From Roseibacillus sp. (GTDB taxonomy: Bacteria > Verrucomicrobiota > Verrucomicrobiia > Verrucomicrobiales > Akkermansiaceae): a stretch of DNA of 64,000 nt. The notes under the pieces are model-generated. The model had not been told where the DNA came from and did not search any database. It saw nothing but the letters and a program-made list of their open reading frames with translations. The position numbers were made by a program, and so were the translations under genes. Below are positions 1 to 8,713 of this stretch, in pieces; position 1 is the stretch's first letter; every line of letters starts with the position of its first letter. The stretch spans positions 1-64,000 of the forward strand of contig JAQWTV010000155.1 of NCBI GenBank assembly GCA_029242545.1, read 5' to 3'.

Positions 1-83
1 CGAAACCCAGAATAAGGCGCATAGGCGTGCTCGCGGGCATCCCTGGCAGCCTGAACCAAATCCTTGTCCGCTCCCTCACTCAT
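1..83 (-). CDS. cdd: Cytidine deaminase, N-terminal fragment
   Basis: Reading the minus strand from an ATG at 83 gives 27 residues before the window edge, beginning MSEGADKDL and ending AYAPYSGF. The stretch AAxxAxxxAYAPYSxF is the hallmark N-terminus of homotetrameric cytidine deaminases, which hydrolyse cytidine and deoxycytidine to (deoxy)uridine in pyrimidine salvage. The zinc-binding HAE and PCxxC motifs would lie outside the window and cannot be checked. No clear Shine-Dalgarno sequence precedes the start. The assignment rests on a short but distinctive motif. Confidence 0.8.
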   Translation of the reverse strand, partial: MSEGADKDLVQAARDAREHAYAPYSGF

Positions 84-607
84 GGCTCTGTGCCTAGCGC
101 GGGTGATTCTCGCCTCTGAGTGATCCGCCCAAGGCTCGTCGGAACCATAGAGGAGGTCATAAGCTTCACGGTCATAAAGGTAGCTTAAATACTAGGCGAT
201 GTGTAGCTAAATCGCCCTGTAGAGACTAAAATCTCCGCTTTTATCCTGAGCGTTTTTTCCGCTTGAACAGTAATTTTACTGAGGATTTTAGTCATCTATC
301 CTCCAATTTCCCACACTCCACATGAAGTTTGGCCGCTTCCTTGAGGTCACTTTTCTCGAAGCTTCCGGAGACCTCTGGGCGACCCCTTTGGTCTGTGCCA
401 ACGCGCCGCCACTCTCGGAGCCTTCCCGCTATTAGAGACAGACGGCCTCCTGGCTCGGGCCGTGGCGGCGGTCCCTCCGCATCTTGCTCCTAAGGAAACG
501 CCGTTTACAGGAACAGCCTTTGCTCGCGCCCGCTGACCATCCGGTCAGTATTCCAGATTGGATTTGCAGCCTTGCGGCGGCCTCAACTCCGGGTAACGTC
601 ATATTGC
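84..607. other. Intergenic region without a convincing gene
   Basis: Between the divergent cytidine deaminase and dienelactone-hydrolase-like genes I see no credible coding sequence. A 37-codon frame from the ATG at 322 has no recognisable features. The region holds a short inverted repeat (GGCGAT at 195-200 with ATCGCC at 211-216) and a nested hairpin cluster at 224-293, listed separately. It must contain the promoters of both flanking genes, but I could not fix -35/-10 boxes with confidence. Confidence 0.5.
224..293. repeat. Nested inverted-repeat cluster (multibranch hairpin)
   Basis: A perfect 10-bp inverted repeat (GACTAAAATC at 224-233, GATTTTAGTC at 284-293) encloses two further hairpins. 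One is AGCG/CGCT (249-252 with 260-263, loop of seven). The other is the near-perfect palindrome CAGTAA-TT-TTACTG at 268-281. As RNA this would fold into a closing stem with two internal arms. It may be a structured leader or small RNA, a cruciform regulatory site, or a small repeat element. I recognise no known riboswitch or RNA family in it. Confidence 0.45.
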
Positions 608-1528
608 ATGTCCCCTCCCTTTCTCCTGAAAACTCTCATCACGGCCACGGCTATTGTCGCCCTCGCCGGGCTGGCAGCAGCATTGGAAGATGACCCGGTC
701 GCTCCTCCAGCAAAGAGCGAAGATGCCCCGCTCAAACCCACCCTAGATGTTGGGCCTGGTTATACCTCTGAAGAAGTAACCTTCACCGCTGGGGCAATCG
801 CAGCCAAAGCCTACCTCGCACTTCCGGCGAACAAGACAGCCGGGCCCTACCCCGGCATTCTGGTCTGTCCAGAATGGTGGGGGCATAACGATTACGTCCG
901 TATGAGGGCGGAGATGCTCGCCCAACTAGGCTACGCCGCGTTGGCAATGGACGTTTATGGAAACGGGCAGAAAGCGCACGACCCAAAAACCGCGGTAAAG
1001 CTCGATGGGGCTCTCAAGGCAAACCAACGCGAAATGAACGCCAGAGTGCTCGCCCACCTCAAGTTTCTCAGAGAGCGACCAGAGGTAGATGGGGCTAAGA
1101 TCGCCGCCGTAGGATACGGAAGCGGAGGGGACGTCTGTCTTCAGATGGCTAGGAACGGAATGCGTGGGCTTGGGGCGGTGATCGCGTTTCATCCCTTATT
1201 TAATGTAGTGCCCTCGCAGCCCCCTATCCGGAAGGCAACCGCAAAGGTAATGGTCTGCAACGCCCTCGAGGACCCTTACGTCCATCTCAGAAAGGGCAAG
1301 GTAGAGGCATTTCGCAACGAAATGGCGAGCGTACAAACGGACCTTGTGATCGTTCCCTTCCCCGATGCGATGCAGAGCTTCACCGTTCCAAACGCCGACA
1401 TAGTTGGGGAAAAGTTCCGGATTCCCCAGGCTTACAGCCCTGAGGCAGACAAGCGAGCCTGGGGCCTTCTCCGGGGATTCTTGAAGGACCTCTGGGGGCC
1501 CGCCAGCCCGTCCGACGAAGAACCCTGA
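608..1528 (+). CDS. Secreted dienelactone-hydrolase-like protein, probable pseudoenzyme
   Basis: A 306-residue alpha/beta-hydrolase of the dienelactone hydrolase family. The ATG at 608 is preferred over the frame's earlier ATG (572) because it starts a clean signal peptide (hydrophobic to about residue 25). Conserved landmarks are present: CPEWWG around residue 90 with the family's Glu89, AMDVYGNG, the AAVGYGSGG strand-turn at 167-174, and Asp222 in NALEDPYV. Two of the three catalytic residues are not. The nucleophile normally sits as Cys in GYCxGG, but position 171 is Gly with a Ser one residue later. The usual AxHSF histidine is Gln256 (AMQSF). It may therefore bind rather than hydrolyse, unless Ser172 has taken over. 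It lies 28 nt upstream of, and probably in one transcription unit with, the two UGA-containing thioredoxin genes. Confidence 0.75.
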   Translation: MSPPFLLKTLITATAIVALAGLAAALEDDPVAPPAKSEDAPLKPTLDVGPGYTSEEVTFTAGAIAAKAYLALPANKTAGPYPGILVCPEWWGHNDYVRMRAEMLAQLGYAALAMDVYGNGQKAHDPKTAVKLDGALKANQREMNARVLAHLKFLRERPEVDGAKIAAVGYGSGGDVCLQMARNGMRGLGAVIAFHPLFNVVPSQPPIRKATAKVMVCNALEDPYVHLRKGKVEAFRNEMASVQTDLVIVPFPDAMQSFTVPNADIVGEKFRIPQAYSPEADKRAWGLLRGFLKDLWGPASPSDEEP

Positions 1529-1556
1529 GAGTCACACTGCTCCCCCTCCCCCTTCC

Positions 1557-2156
1557 ATGGCCTTGAATCCCCAGCCTTTTCATTCCGTCCGTCGGTGGCG
1601 CCTTCTCCTCGTGGGCTTGACAAGCCTCGTGATGCTTGTCTCCTGCAAAGAGACAGGGCCGCCCATCAACACGAGCCCTCCCAAGGGACTGCAGGAGCGC
1701 CCTCCGGAGCCTGACCCTGAAGTCGTCGCCGCTCTCAAGGCACAGGCGTTCGGCAGCAAGCTTCTTGGCCTGACAAATTACCTCGTGCGGGGCGATTACG
1801 TTCGAGCCGATCTGCCCAAGGCGCCCCGGTATTATCTCCTCAATTTTAGTGGAAGCACTTGAGGCCCCTGCCGAGTACACGCTCCAGAGTTACTGGAGAA
1901 ATATCAAAGACAAATCGCGACAAACCCTGAGGTGGCATTGGTCCACGTTAGTTGCGATGAAGTCGAAGCGGATGCCCTTACATGGGCTCGGCAAGAGGGG
2001 TTTACATGGCCTACTATTCTCTTCTCTGACCTTGAGCGGGCAGGGCTTGCCCAGTATGACGCTTGGCCCGGCGAGGTGCGGCTCGTAGACAGTGCGGGCA
2101 GCGTTCTCACCAAAGACGAGGGCGAGGCCTTTGCGACTATTCCCCTAAAAGATTGA
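1557..2156 (+). CDS. Selenocysteine-containing thioredoxin-like lipoprotein (in-frame UGA)
   Basis: Proposed 199-residue protein read through the TGA at 1860-1862. Residues 1-29 are a signal sequence with a lipobox (LVSC, Cys30), so it should be anchored to a membrane. After a linker comes a thioredoxin/TlpA-like fold: the beta strand YYLLNF, the active site S-T-U102-G-P-C105-R, a helix (APELLEKYQ), the strand VALVHVS and the WPT segment. The TGA stands exactly at the first redox cysteine. The same frame runs on for 97 codons of clear thioredoxin sequence before the TGA stop at 2154. Translation starting downstream would lack the first strand and the U/C position. A SECIS-like hairpin follows at 1882-1898. 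The next gene is a paralogue with the same UGA. The cis-Pro site looks altered (PGEVRLV rather than GVPxxxL). Likely role: thiol-disulfide or peroxide chemistry in the envelope. An ordinary annotation would give a truncated 101-residue protein. Confidence 0.85.
1860..1898 (+). promoter_or_regulatory. UGA(Sec) codon with bacterial SECIS-like hairpin, first copy
   Basis: The UGA at 1860-1862 is followed by a perfect 6-bp stem, CUCCAG (1882-1887) with CUGGAG (1893-1898), closing a five-base loop AGUUA (1888-1892). The loop starts 26 nt after the UGA and has G as its second base. Both fit the known bacterial SECIS pattern (small loop, G among its first two bases, roughly 16-37 nt from UGA), where SelB binds to deliver Sec-tRNA. 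The element lies inside the reading frame and encodes A-P-E-L-L-E. Folding energy was not computed. Confidence 0.7.
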
Positions 2157-2214
2157 CATTTTTTCTCCTCCGACGACGCTTCTATCTAGCGTAACCTTCG
2201 TTTCCCCGATTGTG

Positions 2215-2937
2215 ATGAACCCAAAAATATTACTATTCGCTGCCTCTCTGGCTCTTCTCGGCCAAGGTCCCCTCGCCGCCCGGACGTGGACCAGTGGCGA
2301 TGGCTCCAAGACCTTTGAAGGCGAACTGCGCGCCCTGAGTGAGAGAGCGAAAACGGTCACCGTTCTCATGGAGGGCGGTAAGCTAAGGACTTTCAAAATC
2401 AGCCTCCTCTCGGAAGAGGACCGGAATTTCCTTAGGAAAGAAGGTCACAAAATCATTCTAGCTGCGAGCGCCGGGAAAGGAGCCGACAATACCCTGCAGG
2501 AACAGAAAATAGGCAAGAATCTGGCGAAGGAAGGAATCCTTTCCAAGCTTGAGGGAGAGAGCTTTGTCGGGCACAAGCTCACCAAGACCCCCGACTACTA
2601 CATCGTATATTTTTCGGCGAGTTGGTGACCCCCCTGCCGCACTTCTGCTCCACAGTTGGTGAAGCAATATCAAGCCGAGATCGCAGACAATCCTGGCGTC
2701 GAGATGATCCATGTCAGCCTCGACCGTGACAAGAAGGCCGCTGAGACTTGGGCAGCGAAAGAAGGGTTTCCCTGGCCGACCGTCATGATGGATAACCTCA
2801 AGAAGAGTGGATTTGAGGACTATATGCCTCGTGGTGTCCCTAATTACAAACTCCTCAGCAAGGACGGCAAGATCGTCGCAGAAGGAAAAGGGGAGGTATT
2901 CGCCAAGGCCGCCGAGCTCACCAAAGAGGAAACCTAA
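2215..2937 (+). CDS. Secreted selenothioredoxin with N-terminal SHD1-like domain (in-frame UGA)
   Basis: Proposed 240-residue protein read through the TGA at 2626-2628. I start at ATG 2215 rather than the adjacent GTG 2212. A signal peptide ends near residue 22 (PLAARTW). Residues about 23-77 (RTWTSGDGSKTFEGEL...LLSEEDRNFL) resemble the SHD1 (Sla1 homology 1) domain common in Planctomycetes and Verrucomicrobia. The rest is a TlpA/thioredoxin fold: strand YYIVYFSASW, active site U138-P-P-C141, helix APQLVKQYQ, strand MIHVSLDRD, EGFPWPT, and the cis-Pro segment RGVPNYKLL. The gene follows its paralogue by 58 nt. Both carry TGA at the same redox cysteine codon, and a SECIS-like hairpin sits at the same distance. 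Two independent nonsense mutations at one homologous codon, with both downstream frames kept open, are improbable. The SHD1 call is from pattern recognition only. Confidence 0.85.
2626..2666 (+). promoter_or_regulatory. UGA(Sec) codon with bacterial SECIS-like hairpin, second copy
   Basis: The UGA at 2626-2628 is followed by the arms UGCUCCAC (2646-2653) and GUGAAGCA (2659-2666): seven base pairs with one C-A mismatch (2650/2662), loop AGUUG (2654-2658). The loop again begins 26 nt after the UGA, as in the upstream paralogue. The pair that closes the loop is C2653-G2659, where the first copy has G1887-C1893. This compensatory swap changes Glu to Gln and Leu to Val in the protein but keeps the stem. 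Confidence 0.7.
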
Positions 2938-3014
2938 CGCGGAGTCGATCGCGCTAGCCAGCCCTCTCCCTATCCGGTCCCACCCGCTTTTTTCGTGCCC
3001 TTCATCGCTAGCTC

Positions 3015-3305
3015 ATGAAACACATCATTCTATTCGCTCTTCTTCTCACCGTTCCCAGCCTCTCCTCCTGCACCCTTGCGGGAAGACTCATTCAAGCTCC
3101 TGTCCGATTGATACAGGCCGGCGTGCGCACGGTCACCGATGTCGACGAGCAGGTGCCGCCGGCCACGACTGAATCCTACCGAATTCACGGCCTCGCCCTG
3201 AAGCATTCCGGGGCAGCCCAATCCTCACGGAGCCTGCCGCAGAATCCGGCGGCCGCCCTCAGGGGCCAGATCCAAGCGAAGTCTCAGCGCCCCGGGGGGG
3301 AGTAA
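3015..3305 (+). CDS. Small lipoprotein of unknown function
   Basis: A 96-residue protein with a lipoprotein signal: MKHIILFALLL, then the lipobox LSSC with Cys19. The mature part has a basic/amphipathic stretch (LIQAPVRLIQAGVRTV) and a polar, Gln/Ser-rich tail with no recognisable domain. It lies 77 nt after the second selenothioredoxin on the same strand and may belong to that transcription unit. Its last 81 bases overlap the 3' end of tsaE on the other strand. Function unknown. Confidence 0.6.
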   Translation: MKHIILFALLLTVPSLSSCTLAGRLIQAPVRLIQAGVRTVTDVDEQVPPATTESYRIHGLALKHSGAAQSSRSLPQNPAAALRGQIQAKSQRPGGE

Positions 3306-3650
3306 TACGGCAAACTTGCTTGCCCACTCTACCACAACCACTCCCGCTGGGTCCTCCAGAAGGTCATCCCACCCGAGTGCAAGAATCTCCTGCTCGCCTT
3401 CTACCCGGTAGAAATCGAGATGATACAGGACCCGCTTCCCTGCAGCGTATTCATGGAGCAGGGTAAAGGTAGGGCTGGTAACCAGCCCATCATGACCCAT
3501 GCCAGCAGCGAGCCCCTTGACGAATTCCGTCTTTCCGGCCCCCAGATCGCCATCCAGCCCAATTACCTGCCCAGGCTCCACTTCTTGCGCCAGTTCATGA
3601 CCCAGAGCACGCATTTCGACGGGATTATCGCATTTTCGAGGAAAATCCAT
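3225..3650 (-). CDS. tsaE: tRNA threonylcarbamoyladenosine biosynthesis ATPase TsaE
   Basis: A 141-residue P-loop ATPase. TsaE works with TsaB, TsaC and TsaD to make the universal t6A37 modification on ANN-decoding tRNAs. Seen here: Walker A GDLGAGKTEF at about residues 34-43, the family motif VTSPTFTLLHEY, the HLDFYR segment, and the C-terminal VVEWASKF around the Walker B-like glutamate. The start MDFPRK (3650) is preferred because the frame's upstream extension is low-complexity and unlike the family. It is divergent from rplU and overlaps the 3' end of a small lipoprotein gene tail-to-tail. Confidence 0.92.
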   Translation of the reverse strand: MDFPRKCDNPVEMRALGHELAQEVEPGQVIGLDGDLGAGKTEFVKGLAAGMGHDGLVTSPTFTLLHEYAAGKRVLYHLDFYRVEGEQEILALGWDDLLEDPAGVVVVEWASKFAVLLPPGALRLRLDLAPEGGRRILRQAP

Positions 3651-3775
3651 ACCTTGGGACTCTGCCTCCGTCCTGCGGCTTTGGCAAAAATTTCTTGCTC
3701 CCCCGGTAAGCCTGTGGTGAATTCCCCGCCCGCTTCGCCTGTGGCGCGGCAACTCTATCCCGTCCCCTAAACACA

Positions 3776-4090
3776 ATGGCCTACGCAGTATTCAAGACCG
3801 GCGGCAAACAGTATCGCGTCCAAGAGGGCGACACCCTCGATATTGAAAAGCTTGAGGGCGAAGTCGATGGCGAAGTCCAGTTCGCTGAGGTCCTCCTCGT
3901 CAATGACGGTTCAGCCACCACGGTTGGAACTCCCCTCGTGGAAGGCGCGGCAGTCACCGCAAAGGTTCTCGATCAATTCCGCGGACCTAAGGGTGTCGCT
4001 TTCAAGTTCAAGCGCCGTAAGGGTCATCACAAAACCAAGGGATATCGGAGAGCTCTTACGAAAGTTGAAATTACCGGCATTGCAGGGTAA
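3776..4090 (+). CDS. rplU: 50S ribosomal protein L21
   Basis: 104 residues, the usual length. The N-terminus [19 protein letters not shown] and the C-terminal block [17 protein letters not shown] are diagnostic of bacterial L21, which binds 23S rRNA domain II near L20. It is followed 31 nt later by rpmA, the standard L21-L27 operon, which ends at a strong intrinsic terminator at 4412-4440. Confidence 0.98.
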
Positions 4091-4121
4091 CTATTTTTCA
4101 GAATTACACACTCAGGATCTC

Positions 4122-4376
4122 ATGGCTCATAAGAAAGGACAAGGATCGGTCAAAAACGGACGCGACTCACGCAGCAAGCGGCTCGGAGTTAAAAAGTTTG
4201 GAGGGGAGGCTGTCATTGCCGGCAACATCATTATCCGACAGCGCGGAACCAAGTGGCACCCCGGAGAGAACGTGGGCTTGGGACGCGACCATACGATTTT
4301 CGCCTTGGTTGATGGCAGTGTCTATTTCGACCGCGAAGGACGCCGCGTCAATGTCGCGGAACCTGCGGCGAGCTAG
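4122..4376 (+). CDS. rpmA: 50S ribosomal protein L27
   Basis: 84 residues. The start [16 protein letters not shown] gives the mature-type N-terminus that reaches into the peptidyl-transferase centre, with no cleavable extension of the kind found in Firmicutes L27. The core motifs [21 protein letters not shown] and [13 protein letters not shown] are intact. Second gene of the rplU-rpmA operon. Confidence 0.98.
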
Positions 4377-4411
4377 ACGACAATTCCAGAATCGTCCTAG
4401 CTATCATCACG

Positions 4412-4440
4412 GCGACTCCCTAGGGGGTCGCTTTTCTTTT
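4412..4440 (+). terminator. Intrinsic terminator after rplU-rpmA
   Basis: A nine-pair GC-rich stem runs from GCGACTCCC (4412-4420) to GGGGGTCGC (4423-4431), with one T-G wobble, and is followed by TTTTCTTTT (4432-4440). Position and shape are those of a Rho-independent terminator for the ribosomal protein operon. Confidence 0.9.
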
Positions 4441-4485
4441 GCTGCTTTCTCTGAAGCGCATGCGAGCCTCCAGTTGCCCTCTAAA

Positions 4486-4935
4486 ATGTTCAATCTCGTC
4501 CTCGTTGCACCTGAGATCCCGCACAATGCCGGTGCGGCGGGTCGACTATGCCTTGCTACGGGATCTACTCTCCACCTCGTCAAGCCACTTGGGTTTTCGC
4601 TAGACGACAAACAAGTCCGCAGAGCGGGCCTAGACTACTGGAAGGACGTCAAGGTGAAGGTCTGGAACTCTCTCGAGGAGCTTCTCGGGGAGGCCGCTCC
4701 AGAGCAGGTTTGGTTCCTCACAACCAAGGGAGCGACTGCCCATTGGGATATTAACTTCAATCGAGGAGACTACCTAGTATGCGGATGTGAAACCCGTGGA
4801 CTGCCTGAATCCCTTCTTTCCGATTTTCCAAATCGCCTTGTGCGGATTCCAATGGCGCAAGACGGAACCAGATCGCTGAACCTTGCGACCGCGGCAGCGG
4901 TAGCCCTCTACGAGGGCATGAGGCAGGTGCAATAA
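4486..4935 (+). CDS. trmL: tRNA (cytidine/uridine-2'-O-)-methyltransferase TrmL
   Basis: 149-residue SPOUT methyltransferase, close to the family length. It 2'-O-methylates the wobble base (C34/U34) of tRNA-Leu isoacceptors. Visible motifs: N-terminal VLVAPEIPHNAGAAGRLC (motif 1, with the N-x-G-x-x-x-R pattern), LVCGCETRGLP (knot loop) and the C-terminal RSLNLATAAAVALYEG that closes the trefoil knot. ATG 4486 fits the family N-terminus. It lies just after the rpmA terminator, so it probably has its own promoter. Confidence 0.93.
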   Translation: MFNLVLVAPEIPHNAGAAGRLCLATGSTLHLVKPLGFSLDDKQVRRAGLDYWKDVKVKVWNSLEELLGEAAPEQVWFLTTKGATAHWDINFNRGDYLVCGCETRGLPESLLSDFPNRLVRIPMAQDGTRSLNLATAAAVALYEGMRQVQ

Positions 4936-4947
4936 GTGCCCAGCCGA

Positions 4948-5214
4948 TTACTCGGAATCCGATTCTTCGTCCGATTCTTCGTCCGATTCTCCATCGGATT
5001 CTCCATCGGATTCTCCATCGGAGGTAGCTTGGATATCCTGTAGAGCCCCGATAAAGTCGCCGAGAATTTCGGCCGGAACCATTATCGTGTCCCTGTTCCC
5101 GGATACATCCTCCGTAATCTTCACTACTTTTCCTCGGGCGTTTTCCTTCAAATCGAGGAAAAACACTTTCCGGTCAGCAAGAATCTTTTCTGTGTGCAGT
5201 AAGTCGCTTTCCAC
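4948..5214 (-). CDS. PUR-alpha-like single-stranded nucleic-acid-binding protein with acidic tail
   Basis: An 88-residue protein. Residues about 8-62 match the PUR repeat found in the bacterial DUF3276/PUR family: EKILADRKVFFLDLKEN, then RGKVVKITED, then RDTIMVPAEILGDFIGAL. These proteins bind single-stranded DNA or RNA. The C-terminus is a tandem acidic tail of SDGE and SDEE units. One PUR repeat is usual in bacteria. It lies downstream of trpS on the same strand, 184 nt away. The target is unknown. Confidence 0.75.
   Translation of the reverse strand: MESDLLHTEKILADRKVFFLDLKENARGKVVKITEDVSGNRDTIMVPAEILGDFIGALQDIQATSDGESDGESDGESDEESDEESDSE
4960..5019. repeat. Five tandem 12-bp units encoding the acidic tail
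   Basis: Five head-to-tail 12-bp copies (CGATTCTTCGTC twice, then (C/G)GATTCTCCATC three times) encode the SDEE/SDGE tail of the PUR protein. The length is in frame and such arrays change copy number by slippage, so tail length may vary between strains. Confidence 0.85.
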
Positions 5215-5397
5215 CTGTCCTCTTTCTTTAATTAGTCCGGAGTATTTTCAGCTGAATCCCCCCACGGGTCAAACTCAAAAGACCAAGACCACTTGAGCGC
5301 TTAAATCCATGGAATTCCATTCCTTTACCAGTCTCTCTGCTCACCACCCTGCCCTGCCGCTCACCGCAGGCAGGACCTGACCTGCCTGCAAAAGATT

Positions 5398-6363
5398 TCA
5401 ATGCAAGCCAACCGCGCTGCGCACACGGTCGAGCACCGCTCTTGCCTGCTCCCGGGCCCGGCCTGCCCCTTCCTTGAGAACCTTGTCAACGTAGCCGGGG
5501 TTATCGAGGAGCTCCTGCCGCCGCTCCCGCATGGGAGCAAAAAAGTTCCAGTAGGATTCCCAGAGACGTTTCTTAAAATCACCATAGCCAATCCCCCCTG
5601 CCTTATGATCCGCAATCATCTCATCGTATTCCTCCGCAGTCGCGAACAACTTGAAAAGATCAAGTATGACTGAGCCCTCGACGGGCTTGGGGTCCTCCAC
5701 GGCCGCAGAATCGGTAACGATCCGCATCACCTTTTTTCGCAACGCTTTTTCTTCCCCGAAAATTGGCAGGGTATTGTTATAGCTCTTGCTCATCTTCTGC
5801 CCATCGAGTCCTGGCACTTTGGCGACGGCATCAGGAATGACCGCTTCCGGATGAACTAGAGTTTCCTCCCCATAGTTCTCGTTGATTTTAGTAACAAGAT
5901 CCCTGGTAACCTCAAGGTGCTGCTTTTGATCCTCCCCAACCGGAACCCGGTCTGAGTCGAAGAGCAGGATATCCGCTGCCATCAAAACCGGATACGCAAA
6001 CAAAGCGTGGCTCGCGGCAACTCCCTGCGATACCTTGTCCTTATAGGAATGACAGCGTTGCAGCAGTCCCATGGGGCAGACTGTGGAGAGGATCCACGCC
6101 AGCTCGCAGACTTCGGGGATGTCACTTTGCCTCCAGAAGACCGCTTTCTCAGGATCAAGCCCACAGGCCAGGAAATCCAGCGCCACTCCCCCAACATTGG
6201 CACGCAGCTCGCCAGAATCATGCGTGGTGGTCATGGCGTGGTAGTCCGCGATGAAATAGAACGCCTCTCCCTCCTCCTGCAACTGAACAGCAGGTCTCAT
6301 GGCTCCAAAGTAGTTGCCAACGTGCAAGGTTCCGCTTGGCTGCAGGCCCGTTAATGTCCGCAT
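5398..6363 (-). CDS. trpS: Tryptophanyl-tRNA synthetase
   Basis: 321-residue class Ic synthetase, normal for bacterial TrpRS. It attaches tryptophan to tRNA-Trp. Class I signatures are clear: the HIGH equivalent TGLQPSGTLHVGNY near the N-terminus and the KMSKS loop in GQKMSKSYNN. The start MRTLTGLQPSG (6363) matches the family; longer starts in the frame would add an unrelated extension. The downstream neighbour on the same strand is the PUR protein, and the SDR gene is divergent. Confidence 0.97.
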   Translation of the reverse strand: MRTLTGLQPSGTLHVGNYFGAMRPAVQLQEEGEAFYFIADYHAMTTTHDSGELRANVGGVALDFLACGLDPEKAVFWRQSDIPEVCELAWILSTVCPMGLLQRCHSYKDKVSQGVAASHALFAYPVLMAADILLFDSDRVPVGEDQKQHLEVTRDLVTKINENYGEETLVHPEAVIPDAVAKVPGLDGQKMSKSYNNTLPIFGEEKALRKKVMRIVTDSAAVEDPKPVEGSVILDLFKLFATAEEYDEMIADHKAGGIGYGDFKKRLWESYWNFFAPMRERRQELLDNPGYVDKVLKEGAGRAREQARAVLDRVRSAVGLH

Positions 6364-6504
6364 GCGGGCATGTTTACGCCTCCCCATGCAGGAAGCAAGA
6401 AGCGACGGAGCTCCTTTACGCCTCCCCATCTTGAACAGCCTGCCATTGCCGAATGGTGTTCTTACGACTGGACTCGCCGATCCCTGATCTGCTCTTCTCT
6501 CCTT

Positions 6505-7221
6505 ATGGATTCTCTCAATGGAAAGGTCGCGGTTGTCACCGGTGCCTCGAGCGGGATAGGCCACGCCATCACTGAGAGCCTTCTGGAGAAGGGGGCCCGG
6601 GTCTTCGGGCTTTGTCGCCAGATCGGCAAAATCCCAGAGGCCGCGATTCCAATCTCATGCGACCTCCGGCAGCCTGCCCGCATTGCCCACGCTTTCGAAA
6701 TTCTGCAACAAGCGGTCCCCTCCATCGACATTCTGGTCAACAACGCAGGGATTGCCTATCTCTCGAGCCTCCTTGAAGGCAAGGTGGCCGATTGGGATGA
6801 AATGTGGGAGGTCAACGTGCGGGGGCTTGCGGTGTGCAGCCAGGAGGCTCTCAAGGTGATGGCCCCTGAAGGAGGGCGTATCGTCAACGTGTCCTCTCTC
6901 AGCGGGCACCGGGTTCCGCCGACCGGGGGGTTTTACGCCCCCACCAAATTCGCCGTCAAGGGCCTCACGGAATCAATGCGGTCCGAATTGAAAGCGGCCG
7001 GCCTCCCTCACCAGGTGGGCTCGGTCTCTCCCGGGTTCGTGGATACGCCCTTGGTAAACGACTATTTTCGTGGGCGGGAAGGCGACCTGGCCGCCCTTCG
7101 CAAAAACACCAGAATGCTTGCGGCCAAGGACATCGCACGAGCTGTTCTCCACATTCTTGAGGCCCCTTCTCATGTAGAAATTGGAGACGTCATCCTCCGC
7201 TCTACCGACCAGACCGTCTAG
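6505..7221 (+). CDS. Short-chain dehydrogenase/reductase
   Basis: 238-residue classical SDR. The Rossmann motif TGASSGIG lies at about residues 12-19, NNAG is present, and the active site is Ser in VSSLSG with Tyr-x-x-x-Lys in FYAPTKFAV. The PG motif is SPGFVDTP. The fold is NAD(P)-dependent. Overall it resembles the DHRS11/YdfG-like group acting on 3-hydroxy acids or ketones, but the substrate cannot be told from sequence. ATG 6505 puts the Rossmann strand at the normal distance from the start. Its 3' end faces rseP. Confidence 0.88.
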   Translation: MDSLNGKVAVVTGASSGIGHAITESLLEKGARVFGLCRQIGKIPEAAIPISCDLRQPARIAHAFEILQQAVPSIDILVNNAGIAYLSSLLEGKVADWDEMWEVNVRGLAVCSQEALKVMAPEGGRIVNVSSLSGHRVPPTGGFYAPTKFAVKGLTESMRSELKAAGLPHQVGSVSPGFVDTPLVNDYFRGREGDLAALRKNTRMLAAKDIARAVLHILEAPSHVEIGDVILRSTDQTV

Positions 7222-7264
7222 GCAAGAGACTCTCGCTATTGCAGGCGCTCGTTGCCTCTGTTGG

Positions 7265-8713
7265 TCAGGGCGTTTCACTCGGCCACTCGTAGGCAGCTGG
7301 GCCCGATCCTCCGCCTCCTCCTACGCGGTCTGCAATATCCTTGCTGGTGATGAAGAGGAAAAGGGCAAGGAGGGCAAAGAAGAACGCGAACTGAACGAAG
7401 TTGAGTATGCGCATCAGGAATCGGCGCAACTCCGCGGTTACAGTGATGAGGCGCCCGATCAAGCTCTCCAGAGTCGCGAGCACGATGTGCCCGCCATCAA
7501 GGATCGGCAGCGGCAACATGTTAAGGATGGCAAGATTGACGTTGAAAAGGACCATGAAGAAGAGCAGGCGCCGCCAGCCGTCTTCAATGCTCAGCATATC
7601 GAACATCACTCCGCCGATGCCAACTGGCCCGGAAAGGTGCTGAATGCCTACATCGGATCTCGGAGAGACGATCTTTGCCAGAGTGACCCGCATCATCCTT
7701 ACACTGTCTCCAATTTGCTCCCAAGGGCCGGGGTTATAAATGGTCTTAGTGAACTCATCTCCTACTTCAAACCCTACGCCAATCATGGGCTTGGCCACCT
7801 CCACATTAGTGGGCGTCCTAGGGGTGATAGTGATGGGCCTCTCCTCTCCACCTCGCAAAACGACTAGGCCAATCGCCTCATCTTCCGATCCATTGACGAT
7901 TTCGGTAAATCGCTGCCGGCTGCGGAGGGACTCACCATTAGCAGCAATGATCTGGTCGCCAGGCTGCATGCCAGCCTGATCGGCAGGGCCTCCCTCCGAG
8001 ATGAAATTAACCAGGATCTTGTTCTCTACCCAGATTCCGACCGTTCTCATCGCCTTCCTTTCCCACCACCGAGTCTCGGGAATATTGAATTCCGTTGTGA
8101 CGGAAAGCTCCGCGCCAGCTCGCTGGACAAGAAAATCCAGCTTGTCTCCCTCGCTCAGCATGATGCTCTCGCGAACCGAATCAAAGGAAGCCGATCCAAG
8201 AAAGCCTCGCACAGGCTTCCCGTTGATTTCCAGGATCTCGTCCCCGACCTTAAGCTTGCCGTAAGCCCCTCCATCTTCGGCGACATATCCAATCACGGTC
8301 GACTCCACGGTGTCCTTGGGTTTGCCTACCCCCATCACCACGAAGGCCGAGACGATCGCGAGAAGGAAGCTGAACAGTGGGCCCGCGAAGGCCACGATGA
8401 TCTTGTCGAGAGGCTTTACCGGGGGGAGAGGCTCCTCCTCTTCCTCCGGCTCTCCAGGCTCCCGGTTCTTCCCCTCCACGGCCTCCATGGGCGCCATTTG
8501 AGGAAGCGCCACAAAGCCCCCGGCGGGAATCCAACCCAGGCCATATTGCACCCCATTAATCTCTTTCTTCCAGATGGGTTTCCCGAACCAGATCTGGAAG
8601 CGGTCCACGCGAAGCCCCCTCCACTTTGCAGCAAGGAAATGGCCTAGCTCGTGGATAAAAATGATGACGTTGAAGAGCGCCACCACGATGAGAATATTAA
8701 GAAGAAAGGTCAT
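7265..8713 (-). CDS. rseP: Site-2 (RseP-type) intramembrane zinc metalloprotease
   Basis: 482-residue M50 protease that cleaves membrane-bound anti-sigma factors and signal-peptide remnants within the inner membrane. The first transmembrane segment carries the zinc-binding HELGH (His21, Glu22, His25). Two PDZ-like domains lie at about 120-190 and 215-290 (VGDEILEINGKPV and PGDQIIAANGE). The third zinc ligand and last helices are in PLPILDGGH near 410. The start MTFLLNILIV (8713) begins directly at the first helix. An acidic Glu/Pro-rich insert (about residues 82-100) is unusual. The stress-response partners are not in this window. Confidence 0.93.
   Translation of the reverse strand: MTFLLNILIVVALFNVIIFIHELGHFLAAKWRGLRVDRFQIWFGKPIWKKEINGVQYGLGWIPAGGFVALPQMAPMEAVEGKNREPGEPEEEEEPLPPVKPLDKIIVAFAGPLFSFLLAIVSAFVVMGVGKPKDTVESTVIGYVAEDGGAYGKLKVGDEILEINGKPVRGFLGSASFDSVRESIMLSEGDKLDFLVQRAGAELSVTTEFNIPETRWWERKAMRTVGIWVENKILVNFISEGGPADQAGMQPGDQIIAANGESLRSRQRFTEIVNGSEDEAIGLVVLRGGEERPITITPRTPTNVEVAKPMIGVGFEVGDEFTKTIYNPGPWEQIGDSVRMMRVTLAKIVSPRSDVGIQHLSGPVGIGGVMFDMLSIEDGWRRLLFFMVLFNVNLAILNMLPLPILDGGHIVLATLESLIGRLITVTAELRRFLMRILNFVQFAFFFALLALFLFITSKDIADRVGGGGGSGPAAYEWPSETP

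Follow-up and report, generated by a model that had tools for sequence, protein, structure and literature searches.

Two adjacent genes carry an in-frame TGA at the redox-active position

The window, the whole stretch of 64,000 nucleotides that was analysed, is the start of contig C127 in a 3.99 Mb Roseibacillus sp. assembly (175 contigs, 93% complete). Two neighbouring genes on its forward strand are each crossed by a single in-frame TGA. Trx1 (1557-2156) begins at an ATG at 1557, runs for 101 codons to the TGA at 1860-1862 and continues for 97 codons to its stop at 2154-2156; sequence, profiles, alignment and a predicted model indicate an exported lipoprotein thioredoxin of 199 residues with a UGPC active site and selenocysteine (Sec) at residue 102. 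Its lipobox cysteine, C30 in LVSC, is encoded at 1644-1646, and an LxSC-type lipobox is retained in most aligned Trx1 homologues. Trx2 (2215-2937) has 137 codons before the TGA at 2626-2628 and 102 after it, up to a TAA stop ending at 2937, and would encode an exported protein of 240 residues with a signal peptide, an SHD1-like domain (about residues 23-87) and a thioredoxin domain with a UPPC motif and Sec at residue 138. The ATG at 2215 is a better choice of start than the GTG immediately upstream at 2212.

In both genes the in-frame UGA is followed by a coding frame open to a normal stop, as in bacterial selenoproteins, and occupies the first position of the thioredoxin CxxC site, giving a UxxC motif in each. 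An earlier note on this DNA had reported both TGAs and the 97 and 102 codons of homologous thioredoxin sequence that follow them, and the sequence agrees. The note had also predicted that standard calling would truncate both proteins, and a standard-code gene caller indeed ended each gene at the TGA.

Upstream of the pair, at 608-1528 on the same strand, lies a gene assigned by profile and alignment to an exported, dienelactone-hydrolase-like protein, which is found 5' of the pair across the genus. Its motif is GYGSGG (in some genomes GYGTGG or GYGAGG), with glycine at the position of the nucleophile cysteine in the motif of the family, in keeping with the earlier description of this neighbour as a catalytically dead hydrolase. 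It is possibly, but not necessarily, part of one unit with the thioredoxin pair.

A search of genome contigs with one protein recovered close relatives alone, in MAGs titled Roseibacillus sp. and Akkermansiaceae bacterium, and a search of viral contigs found no relatives. From these titles we take the genome to be that of a member of the Verrucomicrobiota, and a marine one, as such MAGs are of marine origin. The end of a second contig of the assembly (L080, G000:C126:26000-32680) carries a diverged version of window positions 1-4881, rplU and rpmA included, with 82% identity across the thioredoxin genes and 93-97% in the flanks, and both versions retain the TGAs. Duplication of the pair was considered and rejected for this second copy, because the downstream ribosomal-protein genes are repeated too; the overlapping contigs are two strain variants of a single locus in one bin.

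The TGA is conserved and was inherited from a single ancestor

Across all homologous loci read, the homologous codon was TGA in 85, TGC in nine and TGT in three, and never any other codon; these loci overlap, and the set used for the hairpin analysis holds 61 distinct segments. Sec is paired with Cys at the UGA among these homologues (85 TGA codons against 12 for Cys), a pattern by which selenoproteins are recognised and one that supplies Cys-containing homologues of the kind proposed earlier as a check. In 58 related genomes one TGA was found at this same codon, genus-wide and also in members of the family and order that have tRNA-Sec, where differing stops or indels in related strains would have pointed to decay. 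Both genes stand in tandem in 14 of 15 genus genomes, and G009 has three. The recurrence of the TGA in independently assembled genomes also rules out a read error for TGC or TGT.

Selection adds to this picture, as dN/dS 3' of the TGA was 0.05-0.27, below the value 5' of it in each comparison for which both could be computed, showing that the post-TGA sequence is under strong purifying selection. Together with the sequence and the codon counts, these values underlie the prediction of Sec102 and Sec138. They also bear on the reading that Trx1 and Trx2 are pseudogenes or split genes, in which each TGA is a plain nonsense codon and the sequence 3' of it is dead or restarted. The behaviour of a standard-code gene caller fits such a reading, and internal ATG, GTG and TTG frames do exist 3' of the TGA. 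However, conservation of the TGA at one codon throughout the genus and beyond already refutes it, and stronger purifying selection 3' than 5' of the TGA and the absence of frameshifts both speak against it, as does the covariation of the hairpin described below. We give this reading practically no chance.

A phylogenetic tree placed all genus Trx1 and Trx2 proteins among Sec proteins, showing that the pair arose by duplication of a gene that already contained Sec and that the two TGAs represent a single inherited event. The argument first made for the pair, that independent nonsense mutations at the same codon of both copies would be unlikely, falls with this result, since the TGAs share one Sec ancestor, but the conclusion that they encode Sec stands.

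A covarying SECIS hairpin follows each TGA

Each TGA is followed at a fixed distance by a hairpin, with 19 nt, a 6-bp stem and an AGUUR loop, so that the distance from TGA to loop is 25 nt. The Trx1 hairpin (1882-1898, forward strand) has a perfect stem (1882-1887/1893-1898) around the loop AGUUA (1888-1892). The Trx2 hairpin (2648-2664, forward strand) has five pairs and one C-A mismatch in its stem (2648-2653/2659-2664) around AGUUG (2654-2658), and is not the lowest-energy fold within its 48-nt context. Published constraints for the bSECIS element (PMC13188914) are an upper stem of 4-16 bp, a loop of 3-9 nt whose first two positions include a G, and a distance of 16-37 nt from the UGA; both hairpins fall within them. 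An Rfam scan of window positions 1-8000 gave no match with an Rfam set that holds no matching bSECIS model.

Covariation supplied the bacterial SECIS evidence that had been called for at the outset. In 31 divergent sequences 93% of cells were paired, with double-sided changes at 6/6 pairs, and compensatory changes at all six pairs were seen across the Verrucomicrobiales. None of 500 shuffles and no slid register was as good as the real hairpin. When synonymous codons were resampled with the protein kept, 146.5 +/- 6 paired cells were expected against 256/282 observed, and the AGTTR loop was expected 4.2 times against 45/47 observed.

Cys homologues lacked the hairpin, with one exception (L044; L093, G051:C139) in which a SECIS-like stem survives but the loop motif has changed. 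This Cys protein groups with a Sec protein in the tree (support 100/98), the position expected for a Sec-to-Cys reversal, and its stem is probably a relic hairpin from such an event.

Searching this genome with a covariance model of the TGA and hairpin returned only the four known sites as well-scoring matches, so any further selenoproteins besides SelD would use different SECIS sequences. Weak matches elsewhere (E at least 0.6) were dismissed as chance, those examined being without coding context.

The genome encodes selenocysteine machinery

Targeted searches showed that the genome encodes SelA (410 bits), a full-length SelB and SelD (L106:4233-5282, G000:C5). SelB is 660 aa long and has, besides its GTPase and beta-barrel domains, a C-terminal pair of winged-helix domains recognised by Pfam. 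SelD is a selenoprotein in its own right (SSCAGUASKLG), and the TGA in its gene is likewise followed by a hairpin. The search for selenocysteine machinery that the earlier note had proposed thus succeeded for the three proteins and in part for tRNA-Sec, of which this assembly holds the first 33 nt only, at the end of contig C68, with the anticodon beyond the contig end. This piece is identical to the first part of the complete gene in the sister genome G007, and complete tRNA-Sec genes with anticodon TCA are present in seven other genus genomes. Initial tRNA-Sec matches had all been sub-threshold and were discarded; ARAGORN showed tRNA-Ser, tRNA-Leu and other tRNAs.

Location at or near contig ends recurred for tRNA-Sec in several assemblies (L055 (G007:C36) 1-1591, G000:C68:1-74 and G021:C175:2-92), and in G007 an ORF resembling phage lysozyme follows its 3' side. 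The tRNA-Sec gene possibly serves as a site of integration; if so, this would account for the broken contigs. In one genome of the order tRNA-Sec occurs twice, the two genes being separated by about 0.7 kb (G109:C73:119883-119977 and 120585-120679).

Across the order, the TGA and hairpin model found sites in 71 of 289 genomes and 21 of 50 genera. In this order-wide search, run at E 1e-7, tRNA-Sec was counted only for spans of at least 88 nt, and matches of 83-86 nt were taken as tRNA-Ser and left out. On this count tRNA-Sec was present in 56/71 hairpin-positive genomes vs 22/218 of the remainder (Fisher p about 1e-27, which overstates independence because the genomes are related), and was not detected in 15 hairpin-positive genomes, some of them more than 90% complete. 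This pattern of predicted sites and tRNA genes indicates that Sec use is common in the Verrucomicrobiales, a point unmentioned in the reviews covered.

These results also address whether general recoding, or else a suppressor tRNA, might insert a different amino acid such as Trp or Cys at the UGAs. UGA suppressors exist, and the codon does stand where Cys is expected. However, TGA terminates 15 of the 43 stop-free frames of at least 250 codons within the window, and Trx1 itself, which means that general recoding is absent, as had been argued from the many other genes that end in UGA. SelA, SelB and SelD are present, and the hairpin is tied both to the TGA form of the gene and to tRNA-Sec, all of which speaks against readthrough with another amino acid, and we consider such decoding extremely improbable. 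With high confidence, on the evidence of sequence, covariation and gene content, Trx1 and Trx2 are predicted to be Sec-decoded, exported thioredoxin-fold proteins, in which SelB and Sec-tRNA-Sec would recode the UGA with the help of the hairpin, its loop 25 nt 3' of the UGA.

Domain structure and probable function

Pfam scores were computed with the TGA read as Cys. Trx2 scored 47.0 bits against a gathering cut-off of 27 for Thioredoxin_8 (PF13905), which Trx1 missed by 0.6 bits (26.4), so that Trx2 alone passes this family threshold; Trx1 scored 26.2 bits against 26 for AhpC-TSA, and the AhpC-TSA and Redoxin profiles match too. The NCBIfam models stayed under their cut-offs, with ResA at 36.9 against 170 bits and DsbE at 32.4 against 123. 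Both predicted models have a thioredoxin fold, with ResA, StoA and tryparedoxin as the best solved matches, and tryparedoxins are also among the best solved-structure matches by sequence profile.

In the predicted model of Trx2, a small beta-strand domain lies between the signal peptide and the thioredoxin domain. SHD1 (PF03983) matched the N-terminal part in 10/21 homologues (best E 4.4e-6) and gave no match with the window protein alone. The earlier description of the pair as one lipoprotein and one SHD1-like fusion is therefore plausible, backed by the lipobox and signal peptide and, for SHD1, by the homologues and not by the window protein itself. By alignment, the cis-Pro that precedes the last strands of thioredoxins is kept in Trx2 and is Gly in genus-type Trx1 (Gly172, codon 2070-2072, forward strand). 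In other thioredoxins, changing this cis-Pro affects substrate and metal binding.

The products would be exported oxidoreductases of the Thioredoxin_8 group (tryparedoxin/ResA-like), Trx1 as a lipoprotein and Trx2 with its N-terminal SHD1-like domain. By analogy with thioredoxin chemistry, Sec would provide the attacking selenolate of UxxC, and the downstream Cys would resolve the mixed selenenyl-sulfide. The targets would most likely be disulfides or oxidised substrates reduced in the cell envelope, and the membrane protein DsbD, which is encoded elsewhere in the genome, would re-reduce both proteins. Export and the presence of DsbD suggest such a reductive role in the envelope, which we consider somewhat favoured.

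Both could also be selenoproteins whose main work is something other than disulfide reduction, such as reducing peroxides or methionine sulfoxide, handling metals or forming disulfides. The AhpC-TSA and Redoxin matches and the missing cis-Pro of genus Trx1 lean that way, but among known folds those of the reductases ResA, StoA and tryparedoxin come nearest, and DsbD is present, although neither fold nor DsbD settles direction or substrate. This alternative is possible but doubtful. We speculate that the pair could form a dedicated envelope Sec redox relay, in which anchored Sec-Trx1, its substrate or metal binding altered by loss of cis-Pro, would exchange electrons with a substrate-binding SHD1-Sec-Trx2, and that the pair and SelD might be among the main reasons why the Sec machinery is kept in these marine bacteria; this scenario is unlikely as a whole.

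Implications and comparison with known systems

Since calling with the standard code would end both proteins ahead of the active-site residue, a widespread bacterial lineage probably has exported redox enzymes that are wrongly annotated. These genes also offer a clean, testable SECIS, with fixed spacing, an AGUUR loop and dozens of natural variants, and a family tree of Sec and Cys forms with an apparent Sec-to-Cys reversal that retains a relic hairpin.

The closest known relatives are the 'thiol-disulfide isomerase-like' UxxC selenoproteins of pfam13905, described in 2005 from four Sargasso Sea sequences (PMC1088965); UxxC Thioredoxin_8 selenoproteins appear again in later catalogues (PMC9312934, PMC13188914). 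The likeness lies in UxxC in both genes, in the marine origin and in a Thioredoxin_8 score above the cut-off for Trx2 and 0.6 bits under it for Trx1. The comparison with this group, whose catalogued reference protein is MAK15852.1, covers Pfam family, motif and marine origin. In the open-access texts, where absence is weak evidence, we found no assignment of UxxC Thioredoxin_8 proteins to Verrucomicrobiota or Verrucomicrobia, and no tandem pair, SHD1 fusion or lipoprotein form. The earlier note knew of Sec-containing thioredoxin-like proteins but did not recognise the tandem pair with its lipoprotein and SHD1-like fusion; UxxC Thioredoxin_8 selenoproteins are already catalogued (PMC9312934, PMC1088965), and it is the tandem, fused and clade-wide arrangement that is undescribed as far as we found.

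Trx1 and Trx2 resemble the extracytoplasmic thioredoxins ResA, StoA and TlpA in fold, export and CxxC position, but those proteins have Cys where these have Sec, and none of their NCBIfam models passes its cut-off. They resemble tryparedoxin and nucleoredoxin in their best sequence matches among solved structures and in a WCPPCR-type motif; that group is eukaryotic, cytosolic and Cys-containing. Finally, they share Sec at the N-terminal redox position with the UxxC thioredoxins of PF00085, but, whereas those are cytosolic-type proteins, these fall in a different Pfam family and are predicted to be exported.
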